From NCBI RefSeq assembly GCF_019203965.1, contig NZ_CP076448.1, forward strand, positions 1,193,001 through 1,257,000: DNA of 64,000 bases, given 5' to 3'. Source of the stretch: Elioraea tepida. GTDB lineage: Bacteria; Pseudomonadota; Alphaproteobacteria; Acetobacterales; Acetobacteraceae. The notes beneath the pieces are model-generated. The model made no database searches. It was given only the letters and a program-made list of their open reading frames with translations, and had not been told where the DNA came from. Numbering within the stretch: position 1 is the first letter of the stretch; every line of letters starts with the position of its first letter. A program made the position numbers and the translations under genes. Positions 51,588 through 58,292 of the stretch are shown here, piece after piece.

Positions 51588-52325
51588 TCAGCGAGCCATG
51601 GCGAGGGTGGAGGTGCGGCCGCTCAAGAGGCGCTCCGCCTCGGCCAGATCTTCCGGCGTCGAGAGGTGCAGCCAAATCCCGTCATGCACCACCGCGGTGA
51701 GCCTTCCCGCTTCGATCGCACGGTCCCACAAGAGGTTGGTGCTGAACGGGCCTTCCGGCGCGCCAGCGAACAGGGATGGTGCCGCAAGCTGCACCCCGGC
51801 GAAGAGATAGGGAACGATCTCGCGCTCGCGCGGCCGGCGCACACGCCCGAGCGGGTCGACGGCGAAGTCACCCCTCCCCGTATAGGCCGGAACCTGCGCG
51901 GCGCGGTGGACGAGCAGCACGGCATCGCACGCCTCCGGGTCGAAGGCGGCGGCGAGGCGGGCGAGAGCGGGCGTCACGCCGTCGAGCCAGAACGCATCTC
52001 CGTTGACGACGTAGAACGGCTCGGGTCCGAGATGAGGCAGGGCGCGCACGACCGCCCCGCCGGTCTCGAGAAGCGTCTCCTCGTGGCTCTCGATGATGGC
52101 CGGGCGGATGCGGGCGGCAAGAGCGGCGCGCACGCGCTCGGCCTGCCAGTGGGTGTTGACGACGACCGTCTCGACGCCGGCGGCGTCGAGATGGTCGAGA
52201 GCGCGGTCGAGCAGGCTCCTTCCGGCGACCTCGAGCAGCGGCTTGGCGGTCGCATCCGTCAGCGGGCGCATCCGGGTTCCGAGCCCTGCGGCCAGGACCA
52301 TGCCGCGCCTCGGCATCGCGATCAT
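51588..52325 (-). CDS. murU: N-acetylmuramate 1-phosphate uridylyltransferase MurU
   Basis: A 245-residue nucleotidyltransferase. The N-terminal signature is MVLAAGLGTRMRPLTDATAKP; VVNTHWQAERV and FYVVNGDAFWLDG follow. MurU uses UTP to make UDP-MurNAc from recycled MurNAc-1-P, bypassing de novo synthesis and giving intrinsic fosfomycin tolerance. The assignment rests on the neighbouring AmgK kinase. Its ATG 52325 overlaps the amgK stop as ATGA. Confidence 0.88.
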   Translation of the reverse strand: MIAMPRRGMVLAAGLGTRMRPLTDATAKPLLEVAGRSLLDRALDHLDAAGVETVVVNTHWQAERVRAALAARIRPAIIESHEETLLETGGAVVRALPHLGPEPFYVVNGDAFWLDGVTPALARLAAAFDPEACDAVLLVHRAAQVPAYTGRGDFAVDPLGRVRRPREREIVPYLFAGVQLAAPSLFAGAPEGPFSTNLLWDRAIEAGRLTAVVHDGIWLHLSTPEDLAEAERLLSGRTSTLAMAR

Positions 52326-53314
52326 GCCGCCCTCGCCTCCGGTGCACGGCGGAGTGCCGGCGGGATGTACGCGTCGAACCAGGCGGCGAGCGGGGCGCAA
52401 GCCGGATGGGCGAGAGCGGCCGCGAGCAGCGCCCAGGTGCGCGGCGCGTGGGCGAGATAGCGGCTCTTGCCGTCGCGACGCTCGAGCCGGGTCCAGAGGG
52501 CGGCCACGCGGGTGTGGCGGACGGCAGCGTGGGCGGCGAAGGCGGCATCGAAACGATCGATGTCGCCGAGGCCGGTCGCGGCGGCGTAGCGGGCGCGCAT
52601 CGACGCGCGCAGCGACGGCGCGAGGTCCCGCCGCGCATCCTCGAGCAGGCTCGCAAGATCGTAGGCCGGGTGGCCGGCGGCGGCGTCCTGGAAATCGAGG
52701 AGGCCGCACGCCGCCTCCCCGCGCCGCCCCTCGAGGCGGAGCAGATTGTCGACATGGAAGTCACGCAAGGCGAGAACGGGCGGGTCGGACGCGAAGGGCG
52801 CGAGCGTGGCAACGACGGCCTGCCGGAAAGAGTCGTGAACAGATCGATCCGGCACCGTTCCGAACATCGCGGGCCACCACCACGCGAGCAGCGTCGCGGA
52901 CGCGGCCTCCGCCATCGCCGGCGCATCCCACGCAGGTGCCCAAGCGGGGGGCGGGACGCGATGCAGAACCGCGAGCGCATCGACCGCAAGCGCGTAAAGC
53001 GCCGCCTCGTCCTCTCCGGCGGCGAGCAGGCGGCTGAAGGTGTCCTCGCCGAGGTCCTCCACGAGCGCAAGGCCCGACACCGGATCGGCGGCGTAGACCT
53101 CGGGCGCGGACAGCCCGAGCGCGCGCAGGTGGCGGGACACCCGCACGAAGGGGGCGATCGAGTCCGCGTCCTGCGGGCAGACCATGAGCAGAGCCGGACG
53201 CGGCCCGCCCGAGAGCCGCTCGTAGCGCCGGGCGGAGGCATCGCCCGGCAGGGGGGTGCGTCGTGCGTCGGCGTAGCCATGCGCGGCGAGGAACGCCCCG
53301 ATGCTCATTCGCAC
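52322..53314 (-). CDS. amgK: Anomeric MurNAc/GlcNAc kinase AmgK
   Basis: A 330-residue APH-fold kinase. DASARRYERLSGG is the nucleotide loop region; the catalytic loop is LRDFHVDNLLRLEG and the metal-binding DFQ is in CGLLDFQDAAAGHPAYDLASL. AmgK phosphorylates recycled MurNAc at C1 for MurU. Two nearby starts, 53314 and 53308, are possible. It overlaps tsaE (stop at 53305), giving a tightly coupled set. Confidence 0.87.
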   Translation of the reverse strand: MRMSIGAFLAAHGYADARRTPLPGDASARRYERLSGGPRPALLMVCPQDADSIAPFVRVSRHLRALGLSAPEVYAADPVSGLALVEDLGEDTFSRLLAAGEDEAALYALAVDALAVLHRVPPPAWAPAWDAPAMAEAASATLLAWWWPAMFGTVPDRSVHDSFRQAVVATLAPFASDPPVLALRDFHVDNLLRLEGRRGEAACGLLDFQDAAAGHPAYDLASLLEDARRDLAPSLRASMRARYAAATGLGDIDRFDAAFAAHAAVRHTRVAALWTRLERRDGKSRYLAHAPRTWALLAAALAHPACAPLAAWFDAYIPPALRRAPEARAA

Positions 53315-53790
53315 AGCCCCAAAAGCCGGTCACCCCAGCCCGAGAGCGTGACCTCGCGCGCCCCGGGGGCACCGCGGACGGGAGAGAGCCGGATCGCGAG
53401 TGCGTCCTCCGGCGTGCGCGTGCCGAGACGCTCGGGCCACTCCACAAGCACGATCCCTCCTCGCGCCTCGTCCCAGCCGAGCTCGGCAAGCTCCGCCTCT
53501 GCGCCGAGGCGCCAAAGGTCGTAGTGCCAGGCGGTGGCGCCGCCGGGGAGCGGATAGGTCTGCACGAGCGTGAACGAAGGGCTCGGGACGACAAGCGAGG
53601 GATCGCCGGTCGCGGCACGGAGGAAGGCGCGCGCGAGCGCCGTCTTGCCTGCGCCATAGGGGCCGGCGAGCAGGATCGCATCTCCCGGCCGCGCCCGCGC
53701 GGCGAGGAAGGCGCCAAGACGCTCCGTCTCCCTCTCGTCGGCGAGGGTGAGCGTCACCGTGCCGTGCTTCGCCATCAGGCTGGTCGTCAT
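53305..53790 (-). CDS. tsaE: tRNA threonylcarbamoyladenosine factor TsaE
   Basis: A 161-residue P-loop ATPase. GPYGAGKTALARAFL is Walker A; SPSFTLVQTY, WHYDLWRLG and IVLVEWPERL are family markers. TsaE assists TsaB/TsaD in making t6A37 on tRNA. ATG 53790 is chosen; an internal ATG at 53775 is an alternative. It overlaps amgK by 10 bases. Confidence 0.93.
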   Translation of the reverse strand: MTTSLMAKHGTVTLTLADERETERLGAFLAARARPGDAILLAGPYGAGKTALARAFLRAATGDPSLVVPSPSFTLVQTYPLPGGATAWHYDLWRLGAEAELAELGWDEARGGIVLVEWPERLGTRTPEDALAIRLSPVRGAPGAREVTLSGWGDRLLGLCE

Positions 53791-53885
53791 GCCGCTTCTC
53801 CGCGCGCCGCAGTGTGCCATGCGGCGTCGGCTTGCGCGACCGGGGGGGGTGCGTATCTATGCCGCGGCCGCTTCAGGAGACGGCG

Positions 53886-55036: not shown

Positions 55037-56023
55037 TCAGAGCAGGGCGGCGAAACAGGGCGTTGTGGGGCGGGGCGCGTCCTCCTTCAGCACCGCCACC
55101 GCATCCCCGAACCAGGCGACGAAGCGATCCGCATGCCTGCCGGTGCCGATCGGGTACTGGCGGAGCTTCCACGGGTTCGCCTCCCCCGCCTGCGGGTAGA
55201 GGCCGCCTGCGTTGTAGGCGCAGGCGACGAGCGGCGGGTCGAAATTCGTCAGCCGCGCTTGGCGTCGAAGATAGACGGTTCCGGCGCGAAGCGAGGTCTC
55301 GGGGTCAAGCAGCGCGGCGCGATCGAGCCCGGGCTCGGCGAGGGTCTCGCGCGCGGTGCTGATCAGCGTCTGCATCAGCCCGGCGGAGACACGGTGCGGC
55401 GTGGCGGAGTCGGACACGAAGCCCGGTTCCTCGCGCACCGCGCGCGGGTCGCCGCCGCTTTCGGTGGCGATCGTGGCGAGGATCAGCTCGGCCGGAACGC
55501 CGTAGGCGGCGGCGCATTTCTCGATCGGGGCCCGGAACGTCCGCCAGATCCGGCGAATGGTCTCCGGCTCGCCGCGCGTGCGCCGCGGCGCCTGCTCGCC
55601 GCCGACGACGACTCCCCCCTGCGCGAGCCTCCAGCTCTGCCCTCCCGTCGCCTGCTGCGGGGCGCCATGCGGCACGGACAGCCGCGCGACATAGGGGCGG
55701 ATCAGCGCCCGCCAGTCGCCGCCCTCGGCGCGCGCGGGCGGCGGCACGGCGAGGCCGGGTGCTGGCTCGGCCGAGGCGGCAGTGGGGAAGAGGGCGCTCC
55801 AGGTGTCACGCCCAACGATCCCGTCCACCGCGATCGCCGGATTGCGGGCGCGCAAACGCCTCTGGAACGCGACGACGGCATCATGCGTTGCGGGGCCGAA
55901 GATGCCATCCGCCGTTCCGGAGAGAGCCCCGTCGCGGATCAGCGCCCGCTGCACCGCGCGCACGTCCTCGCCGCGCATCAGCGGGAAGCGCCAGGCGAGC
56001 TCGCGCGAGAGCGCAGCGGTCAC
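55037..56023 (-). CDS. Peptidoglycan-binding lytic transglycosylase without a signal peptide
   Basis: A 328-residue protein. Residues 15-65 are a PG_binding_1 domain (GEDVRAVQRALI, GIFGPATHDAVVAFQ). The C-terminal half is a complete SLT domain: the catalytic Glu in ILATIATESGGDP, GLMQTLIS, and ACAYNAGGLYPQ. It cleaves glycan strands in murein. The N-terminus MTAALSRELAWRFPLM has no export signal, so it would stay cytoplasmic unless released. GTG 56023 overlaps the stop of the lipoprotein gene as GTGA. Last gene of a three-gene overlapping set. Confidence 0.85.
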   Translation of the reverse strand: MTAALSRELAWRFPLMRGEDVRAVQRALIRDGALSGTADGIFGPATHDAVVAFQRRLRARNPAIAVDGIVGRDTWSALFPTAASAEPAPGLAVPPPARAEGGDWRALIRPYVARLSVPHGAPQQATGGQSWRLAQGGVVVGGEQAPRRTRGEPETIRRIWRTFRAPIEKCAAAYGVPAELILATIATESGGDPRAVREEPGFVSDSATPHRVSAGLMQTLISTARETLAEPGLDRAALLDPETSLRAGTVYLRRQARLTNFDPPLVACAYNAGGLYPQAGEANPWKLRQYPIGTGRHADRFVAWFGDAVAVLKEDAPRPTTPCFAALL

Positions 56024-56724
56024 GGCGTGCAGCCCGGGATGGTGGCGCGCCGCGCCGCCGCATCGGCCGCAAGGCGGAGGAGAAGCGCGCGCTCCTCGAC
56101 CTCGGGGTTGGCGGCAAGGCCGGCTGCGGCGAGCCGGGCGGCCTCGCGCGCGCGCTCGCACCGCACCGAATCCGCCCCCGCTCCGGGCCGAGCCAGGTAG
56201 AGCGCGGCGGAGCCGCCGATCGCGGCGCGGCGCGCGGGCGGCAGGCCGGCCGAGAGGGAGAGCGACTCGCGCGCAAGCGGCACTCCGGCCATGACCGTCT
56301 CAAGCTCGGCGCGGCAATAGGCGGCCTGGGCGCGGCCTTGTCGCAAAGCGAGCACCTGGGCCTCGGTGAACCGCCCGGCTGGCGAGCCCATGGCGGCGGC
56401 GAACGCGGCGTGCGCGCAGGCGAGCTCGGCGCGCGCCTCCGCCGTCGCGGCCGGGCAGGCGGCGCCGGGCGCGCGCCGTGCCATCGCGAGCGCGAGGCAG
56501 GACTCGGCGCGGATCGCCATGAGCCTCGCACAGGCCTCGGTCCCGGCGTGCTGGCACGTCTCAACGACCTCTTCATCGGCGATCGCGCGCAGATCCCCGC
56601 GCGCGCGCGCCTGTTGGAACCGCTCGAGCTGCGCAACGTCGGGGTCGAGCAGGCGGCCCACCTGCTGGCAGGCGGCAAGCAGAACCGCAAGAAGCGCGAG
56701 GAGGGTGAGAACGGGCCGGGTCAT
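56020..56724 (-). CDS. Lipoprotein of unknown function (spanin-like position)
   Basis: A 234-residue protein. MTRPVLTLLALLAVLLAAC is a signal peptide with a good lipobox (LLAAC), so Cys19 should be lipidated. The mature part is Ala-rich and helical, with several scattered cysteines (for example VVETCQHAGTEAC and ELACAHA). No recognised domain. ATG 56724 overlaps the stop of the upstream membrane protein, and its stop overlaps the start of the transglycosylase gene, so the three are translated together. Confidence 0.7.
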   Translation of the reverse strand: MTRPVLTLLALLAVLLAACQQVGRLLDPDVAQLERFQQARARGDLRAIADEEVVETCQHAGTEACARLMAIRAESCLALAMARRAPGAACPAATAEARAELACAHAAFAAAMGSPAGRFTEAQVLALRQGRAQAAYCRAELETVMAGVPLARESLSLSAGLPPARRAAIGGSAALYLARPGAGADSVRCERAREAARLAAAGLAANPEVEERALLLRLAADAAARRATIPGCTP

Positions 56725-58211
56725 GCGAGCGTTCCTTTCGCCTGAACGTTTCCGAGATCGGCGACCAGCCGGGCGGGATCGACATGCTTCTCGCGCAGAT
56801 GCCCGACCATCAGAACGAGCGCCTCGAGAGCCGCCCTCTCGTCCTCGGCCGCGCCCTCGCGCACGGCCTGGTCGAGCGCCGCGTTCACCTCGTCCTCGGT
56901 CGGGGGGGGCGCGCCGATCGTTCCGGCCACGGCGGCAATCGTCTCCGGCTTGATATCGTTTGCCGCCTGCTCGGCGAGGAGGGCACGGCGGAACTCGTCG
57001 AGACCCGCCTCGAGCTCCTCGCGGCTTGCGAACAGCGACGCCTCGCCGCCGTAGAGCGACCAGAGCCGCTCCGTCGCATCGTCGCGGGCCACCGCGTCGA
57101 CGAGGGTCGCGAAGAAGCCTCCCTCGCGCTTGCGGGCGGCGAAGACGCGGGAGAAGATCGCGCAGCGTTCCATGCGGATTTCGGCCGAGGTCGGCGTGAC
57201 GACGCCGAAATCGATGAGCTGCGGCTCGTAGGGAGCGGCGAGGATACGGGCACGCCAGCGCCGGTACTCGGCCGAGCCGAGCTGCCAGCCGAGGCCGAGC
57301 ACGAGGGCGACGCTGGCAACCGGGCCGAGCCCGCCGATCGCGGGCAGGGCGCCGGCCGCCTTGCCGAGGAGCCCCCCGAGCGGGGAGCCGACGACCAGCG
57401 CCCGGCCGGCCTCGAGAACCGAGGCGACGGCGCGCTCGGTGACCTCGCCACGGGCAAGCGCCCGCGCCCCTTCCGCGGCGCTGCGGGCACGGCGGATCAC
57501 CTCCTCAGAGCCGGGCGGAATCAGGCCCGGCGGCAGGGCCGGCCCGAGCACCTTGACGAGCACCTCGGCAGCGGCGAGGTGGCGATCGATCAGGCCGAGC
57601 CCCTCCGCCAGACGGCTCTCGCGTGTCGCCGCCTCGGCGGCGCCGCCGGCGCTCCGTTCCGCCTCGGCCGCACGCTCCTCCGCCGCTCGAAGCTCCTCGC
57701 GCGCGGAGGCGAGCGTTCCGGCCAGCTGGCGCGCCGCCTGGCCCTCCGCCCCGCCGGCGCGCGTGCCGAAATAGAAGGCGAAGACGCTCATCACGATGCC
57801 GTTGATGTAGCCGGCGATCGCCGCATCGAGCTTGAGCGCGTTGGCGAACAGGAGGATCGGCAGGCCGACCAGCCCCACGATGAGAGCGAGCAGGGCGCGG
57901 ATCGTGCCCTCGGGAAGCGCCATCGGCAGCTCGCGCAGGCTCGCGATCCGCTCCGGCGGGATCCCTGGATCGCGCAGGAGCGCGAAGAACCGGTTGGCGA
58001 GCCACCACAGGAATACCCCGATCGCGGCACCGACGAGGAACACGAGCAGGGCGGCGAGATTGGCGCCCCCTTCGCCTCGGTCGAGCAGGGCGGCAAGGGC
58101 GGCAAGCCCAGGCAGATCGAGGAGCTGCGCCCCCTTGACCACGAGGATGACGGACGCGCCGACGAGGAGGATCTGGGCGGGGAGCCTGAGCGAGGCGGCG
58201 AGTGCGGTCAC
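56721..58211 (-). CDS. Four-helix membrane protein with coiled coil, unknown
   Basis: A 496-residue protein. Four N-terminal membrane helices appear in residues 5-150: QILLVGASVILVVKGAQLL, LLVFLVGAAIGVFLWWL, IRALLALIVGLVGLPILLF and INGIVMSVFAFYFG. An Ala/Glu-rich coiled coil follows (REELRAAEERAAEAE). A further hydrophobic stretch (LGPVASVALVLGLGWQLG) leads to a soluble C-terminal domain. I do not recognise the family. GTG 58211 is the start fitting the promoter at 58264-58292. First gene of the membrane protein, lipoprotein, transglycosylase set. Confidence 0.65.
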   Translation of the reverse strand: MTALAASLRLPAQILLVGASVILVVKGAQLLDLPGLAALAALLDRGEGGANLAALLVFLVGAAIGVFLWWLANRFFALLRDPGIPPERIASLRELPMALPEGTIRALLALIVGLVGLPILLFANALKLDAAIAGYINGIVMSVFAFYFGTRAGGAEGQAARQLAGTLASAREELRAAEERAAEAERSAGGAAEAATRESRLAEGLGLIDRHLAAAEVLVKVLGPALPPGLIPPGSEEVIRRARSAAEGARALARGEVTERAVASVLEAGRALVVGSPLGGLLGKAAGALPAIGGLGPVASVALVLGLGWQLGSAEYRRWRARILAAPYEPQLIDFGVVTPTSAEIRMERCAIFSRVFAARKREGGFFATLVDAVARDDATERLWSLYGGEASLFASREELEAGLDEFRRALLAEQAANDIKPETIAAVAGTIGAPPPTEDEVNAALDQAVREGAAEDERAALEALVLMVGHLREKHVDPARLVADLGNVQAKGTLA

Positions 58212-58260: not shown

Positions 58261-58292
58261 AGGACTATAGTCCTATAGACTGCCTGGCGCAA
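58261..58292 (-). promoter_or_regulatory. Promoter and palindromic operator of the envelope cassette
   Basis: On the minus strand a -35-like TTGCGC (58287-58292) and a -10-like TATAGT (58264-58269) have a 17-base spacer. The -10 lies inside a perfect 14-base palindrome, AGGACTATAGTCCT (58261-58274), and a second CTATAG follows at 58274-58279. This A/T-rich patch is unusual in the window. A dimeric repressor site overlapping the promoter is a reasonable reading. Confidence 0.45.

Follow-up and report, generated by a model that had tools for sequence, protein, structure and literature searches.

Results

Overall architecture of the locus

The window, i.e. the 64,000-nucleotide stretch of the Elioraea tepida genome (3.37 Mb, single contig) analysed here, contains three genes on the minus strand in the order membrane protein (MP), lipoprotein (LP) and SLT enzyme. 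The first gene (56721..58211, GTG start) encodes MP, 496 residues with four transmembrane (TM) helices, a coiled coil and a helical C-terminal domain. The second (56020..56724, ATG start) encodes LP, 234 residues with a lipobox cysteine (Cys19), several further conserved cysteines and a TPR-like helical repeat, and the third (55037..56023, GTG start) a lytic transglycosylase of 328 residues that combines a PG_binding_1 and an SLT domain without a signal peptide. Adjacent genes overlap by four nucleotides, through an ATGA shared by the MP stop and the LP start (56721..56724), as in most relatives, and a GTGA shared by the LP stop and the enzyme start (56020..56023), with similar overlaps in relatives; the gene coordinates and overlaps in the initial annotation are thereby found to be correct.

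On either side of the trio, the genes scanned have metabolic or housekeeping functions and include the halves of a TPP enzyme, CMD, a 3-hydroxyisobutyrate-type dehydrogenase, an ABC ATPase, a pyridine-nucleotide reductase, TsaE, an APH kinase and a PD-(D/E)XK protein. Among them we detect neither phage genes, in agreement with what had been stated from the sequence earlier, nor defence genes. There are no obvious cargo or particle genes near the trio in the window and no linked cargo or regulator was seen; across the trio loci no conserved cargo neighbour was found, the flanks varying by clade. Adjoining the trio (51588-53820, minus strand) are genes for TsaE, an APH-type kinase and a nucleotidyltransferase that are common to several trio-bearing genera, and which we take to resemble TsaE-AmgK-MurU of peptidoglycan recycling.

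A transglycosylase without export signal

Both enzyme domains are readily recognised (PG_binding_1, 2.2e-14; SLT, 7.5e-17), and membership of the SLT family (PF01464) is supported by a score of 61.4 bits against a curated cut-off of 21.3, as well as by the conserved glutamate motif. Glu188 of the ATESGG motif (codon at 55460..55462, minus strand) is presumed to be the catalytic residue by analogy to the SLT family, and in the enzyme alignment (A3) E188, S189 and the YNAG residues are all invariant. No signal peptide is found, as the initial annotation had noted together with the PG-binding domain, and no TM segment either, with no hydrophobic window above threshold along the whole length. Likewise, in the trio relatives that were read the enzyme begins at or near the PG-binding domain and has no signal peptide. 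The genome carries five other SLT genes.

A TPR-like lipoprotein

LP displays the lipobox LLAAC with Cys19, confirming its earlier designation as a lipoprotein. The residue at position +2 decides the address of a lipoprotein, and since this residue is Gln and not Asp, LP likely sits at the outer membrane. The predicted fold is a TPR-like helical repeat (pLDDT 94.6), and in the family the lipobox cysteine is invariant and six further cysteines are invariant or nearly so. No family match was obtained in Pfam, NCBIfam or PADLOC. The parallel to spanins drawn in the initial annotation does not hold, as LP is a TPR-like lipoprotein of disulphide type; its size, cysteine pattern and fold rule out a spanin, it does not correspond to the short lipoprotein with an inner-membrane partner of the Rz1 type, and there is no i-spanin gene within the operon.

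A large membrane protein with a conserved hairpin

The AlphaFold2 model of MP places hydrophobic N-terminal helices at residues 9-31, 48-80, 102-121 and 130-149, followed first by a long helix of coiled-coil type (156-221) and then by a C-terminal helical domain predicted with confidence, in agreement with the four-helix, coiled-coil protein described at the outset. The best-conserved part is TM3-4 (LPEGTxRA...FYFGxR), with P100, G102, R105, Y147, F148 and R151 invariant; the corresponding hairpin, residues 102-151 (GTIRA...YINGIVMSVFAFYFGTR; 57759..57908, minus strand), is similar to holin-type hairpins of phages and GTAs.

Searches of Pfam, NCBIfam and PADLOC assigned MP as a whole to no family, and a search of phage families returned a single weak match (E 0.15). 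PF11351 (GTA_holin_3TM) gives no match to the window MP even at E 1, and the best of the tested relatives reaches 14.7 bits, under the curated cut-off of 24.8 bits. Searches of phage and plasmid records with MP by tblastn were without a match, neither viral contigs nor phage records yielded an MP relative, and fold searches of the PDB and BFVD yielded coiled-coil or bundle matches only, which are uninformative. With about 500 residues, four TM helices and a big soluble domain, MP is unlike typical holins. A membrane protein with an LPEGTVRA...FYFGAK signature and a coiled coil was also encountered in a 3.2-kb locus that has no SLT gene (L242:1411-2313), and the MP hairpin may belong to a wider family.

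Relationship to phage and GTA lysis genes

The SLT subfamily of the window is present in IMG/VR viral contigs, in one of which (L098) the homologue directly follows a phage head-morphogenesis gene. In Rhizobium, Phyllobacterium, Paracoccus, Methylobacterium and others, the SLT domain is fused behind a two-TM hairpin ending in FYWGSSQGSKEK or similar. This hairpin corresponds to phrog_1544, one member also matching the holin family phrog_3427 at 4e-5, and in the SLT tree all fusions fall into a single supported clade, which is placed together with viral SLTs (98/92). A stand-alone phrog_1544 protein is encoded immediately before a Peptidase_M15_3 gene in another viral contig (L238); the phage context of the hairpin rests on few examples, as the viral-contig scan gave only three confirmed loci. 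Upstream of the Rhizobium fusion (L007:5881-8976) lies a gene for a 1031-residue protein with many apparent TM segments and no match in Pfam or PADLOC.

Profile comparison by hhalign relates the fused hairpin to TM3-4 of MP with 96.4% probability (reversed and block-shuffled controls at most 10%), and GTA holins to MP with 51% (controls at most 1.3%). In the whole-genome search the MP profile also retrieves a GTA holin at E 3.8e-5 (L243), itself a PF11351 member at 7.8e-28, that adjoins a gene with GH108 and PG_binding_3 domains. PF11351 has previously been recognised in TeaA, the holin of phage ICP1 tested by expression (PMC7182436). The evidence that TM3-4 of MP and holin-type hairpins share ancestry is good but not conclusive, because the alignment covers a short, hydrophobic stretch. 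The initial annotation was right that MP is large for a holin, while its view that the parallel is only functional appears too weak, since part of MP looks homologous to holin-type hairpins.

Conservation and distribution

Scanning 84,980 species genomes, combined with the whole-genome search, identified about 30 loci that keep the gene order, mostly with ATGA-type overlaps, the lipobox in gene 2 and an enzyme without signal peptide; recurrence of these features in so many loci exceeds chance. They span Alpha-, Beta- and Gammaproteobacteria and Nitrospirota, with MP identity down to about 20-30%, and are carried by Elioraea, Roseomonas, Roseococcus, Humitalea, Belnapia and Rubritepida, and further by Rhodocyclus, Derxia, Methylomonas, Steroidobacter, Sphingomonas and Nitrospirota MAGs. 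Among 299 genomes of the family, 47 carry MP and 42 the enzyme subfamily, and 41 of these 42 also have MP; where contigs allow, the gap between the two genes is mostly about 0.6-0.7 kb, i.e. the length of LP. In a draw of 398 genomes across the phylum four matched, two of them weakly. The trio is a patchy accessory trait. The initial annotation had made its reading depend on homologues free of signal peptides, on conservation of the trio as a block and on MP belonging to no unrelated known family, and the data agree with it on each of these points.

Within clades the chromosomal site is stable, usually with one site per genome. Elioraea, Roseomonas, Craurococcus and Belnapia have in common an order that we take to be pyridine-nucleotide reductase-TsaE-kinase-nucleotidyltransferase-AddB-like, and another clade presumably has aspartate-semialdehyde-dehydrogenase-like neighbours. 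In the enzyme tree, trio copies are scattered over several places and beta-proteobacterial copies fall within an Acetobacteraceae clade (81/79), which suggests that the trio has probably been transferred between lineages. Elioraea tepidiphila (L028:2786-6002) harbours a very divergent trio, with an MP of about 29% identity, and carries it at the chromosomal site that the trio occupies in the window and in E. rosea, and the E. tepidiphila and window enzymes fall in different tree clades; together this suggests replacement in place or fast divergence of the trio at this site.

Upstream regulatory motifs

GTTC-N7-GTTC is the LexA box of Alphaproteobacteria (PMC3323433). We find this box ahead of MP genes in 17 of the 52 distinct upstream regions, covering nine of 26 MP lineages (at 60% identity), several of them in Acetobacteraceae. 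Control spacings (N3-N6 and N8-N12) occur zero to one time each in the same 52 regions and the reversed motif zero to two times, and the remainder of the loci contains six boxes in 385 kb. Upstream of the window trio the box is absent; the lexA gene of the same genome bears one itself. No E. coli-type box (CTGT-N8-ACAG) was found upstream of the beta- and gammaproteobacterial copies, and a scan for the sigma-70 consensus gave no match. GAAC-N12-GTTC is in excess over the other spacings, occurring in six of the 52 regions.

Upstream of MP in the window lies a perfect 12-bp palindrome, GGACTATAGTCC (58262..58273), that occurs only once in the genome and represents a candidate operator. A similar GGACTNNAGTCC is found in loci L028 and L056. 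The counterpart of the window palindrome in E. tepidiphila is GGACTGAAGTCC, and that in Falsiroseomonas, located after the LexA box, is GGACTTAAGTCC. In L056 and L060, a palindrome-like site, GGACTTAAGTCC or GGATTTAAGTCC, comparable to that of the window, follows the LexA box about 40 nucleotides upstream of MP, and it is possible that this site constitutes a second operator. An identical 15-mer, GTTCCTCATATGTTC, was observed four times (G000:C1, positions 1375689, 2356424, 2503788 and 2640872), perhaps as part of a repeated element.

Discussion

With a probability of roughly 60%, and on sequence evidence, we propose that the trio is a chromosomal, domesticated module of holin-endolysin type that serves lysis or opening of the envelope and is linked to the SOS response in relatives. 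The initial annotation had suggested a domesticated module of this kind; viral SLTs, the hairpin fusions, the similarity of the MP hairpin and LexA boxes in nine lineages argue for it, and its spanin component is abandoned. As the trio is conserved outside prophages and wired to LexA in many relatives, it probably bursts cells or opens the wall on command.

The following sequence of events is conceivable. The operon would be derepressed by DNA damage or, in Elioraea, by another signal, and MP would build up in the inner membrane; its coiled coil and helical domain, together a large cytoplasmic part, would gate oligomerisation, hold the enzyme or do both. Upon triggering, MP would admit the signal-less transglycosylase to the periplasm, where it would cut glycan strands, and the TPR-like LP may act at the outer membrane to restrain, position or finish the opening, so that a subpopulation would lyse or release vesicles. 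What the sequence shows is the order of the genes, the domains of the enzyme and its missing export signal, the coupling of MP and enzyme, and the LexA boxes; we infer export via MP, its triggering, the ensuing lysis and what LP does. A more far-reaching version, possible but doubtful, is that MP has co-opted a holin-type hairpin and represents, together with the TPR lipoprotein, a previously undescribed trans-envelope machine, i.e. an inner- and outer-membrane pair that exports and times a single transglycosylase for SOS-controlled opening, replacing spanin-based cassettes in several phyla.

The closest functional parallels are found among type 10 secretion systems (T10SS), such as Serratia ChiWXYZ/SmaLC and Yersinia entomophaga YenLC (HolA-PepB-Rz-Rz1), which accomplish lytic release by a subpopulation (PMC10847048). 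As is proposed for the trio, holin/endolysin logic is there employed outside prophages, in the chromosome among ordinary genes, and both have a murein hydrolase without export signal. However, T10SS comprise a small holin, an endolysin cleaving peptidoglycan crosslinks and a two-part spanin, whereas the trio joins a transglycosylase to a large MP and to a lipoprotein of TPR-like fold, without an Rz/Rz1 pair; the MP hairpin resembles holin-type proteins, but MP is large and matches no holin family. The alphaproteobacterial pair of GTA holin (PF11351) and GH108 endolysin shares with the trio a final hairpin ending in FYFGAR and an adjoining murein hydrolase gene. Unlike MP, the GTA holin has about 150 residues and no large C-terminal domain, its hydrolase belongs to a different family and no lipoprotein partner was seen; the window genome contains no PF11351 match. 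The phrog_1544-type fusions (Rhizobium jaguaris WP_162950472 and relatives) unite a homologous SLT and a similar hairpin in one polypeptide, and at the R. jaguaris locus neither a separate MP nor a lipoprotein was seen alongside; the 1031-residue membrane protein lies upstream there. The pyocin endolysin Lys of Pseudomonas aeruginosa causes explosive lysis of a stressed subpopulation, with release of vesicles and DNA (PMC4834629). Comparable to what is proposed for the trio, Lys, a prophage-type endolysin, acts in stressed cells, but it is encoded in the pyocin cluster, whereas the trio is free of particle genes. Because the two-component spanin is missing and MP scores below the PF11351 cut-off, we assign the trio neither to T10SS nor to phage cassettes.

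Among other explanations, remodelling without lysis deserves attention although we judge it rather unlikely. Here MP would be a gate or tether exporting little transglycosylase, with the outer-membrane lipoprotein guiding or inhibiting it, and local opening would serve vesiculation, release of DNA or protein, or repair. The large, structured cytoplasmic part of MP, the well-folded TPR-like LP, suited to protein-protein contacts, and the long-term retention of the trio at stable chromosomal sites are compatible with such a function, but lysis accounts at least equally well for LexA control in relatives and for the enzyme having phage-type homologues. Clearly less probable is anti-phage abortive infection, in which infection or DNA damage would set off cell suicide: PADLOC profiles give no match, the neighbours are housekeeping or metabolic rather than defence genes, and there is usually one site per genome with stable synteny, despite the patchy spread (47/299 in the family, 4/398 in the phylum), the very divergent trios at a single site among Elioraea species and the upstream SOS boxes, all of which abortive infection would account for.

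That the three genes are simply a housekeeping operon for a transglycosylase whose export goes unrecognised seems very improbable; SLT and PG-binding domains are common and the genome has five further SLT genes, but the accessory, patchy distribution, the lack of a signal peptide on the enzyme in the relatives read, the conserved coupling of enzyme and MP and the LexA boxes speak against it. Least credible of all is a decaying remnant of a prophage lysis cassette, which the viral relatives of the enzyme might suggest. It is contradicted by the conservation of the trio, with three intact genes in about 30 divergent loci, by the phage-free surroundings and by the failure to find any MP relative in viral contigs or phage records.

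In conclusion, the preferred interpretation as a domesticated module, if true, would represent programmed lysis of holin/endolysin type without a spanin or prophage context, in which two of the three gene families are described in none of the libraries searched. It would also provide a candidate route for DNA, vesicles or particles out of Roseomonas-type and other bacteria.
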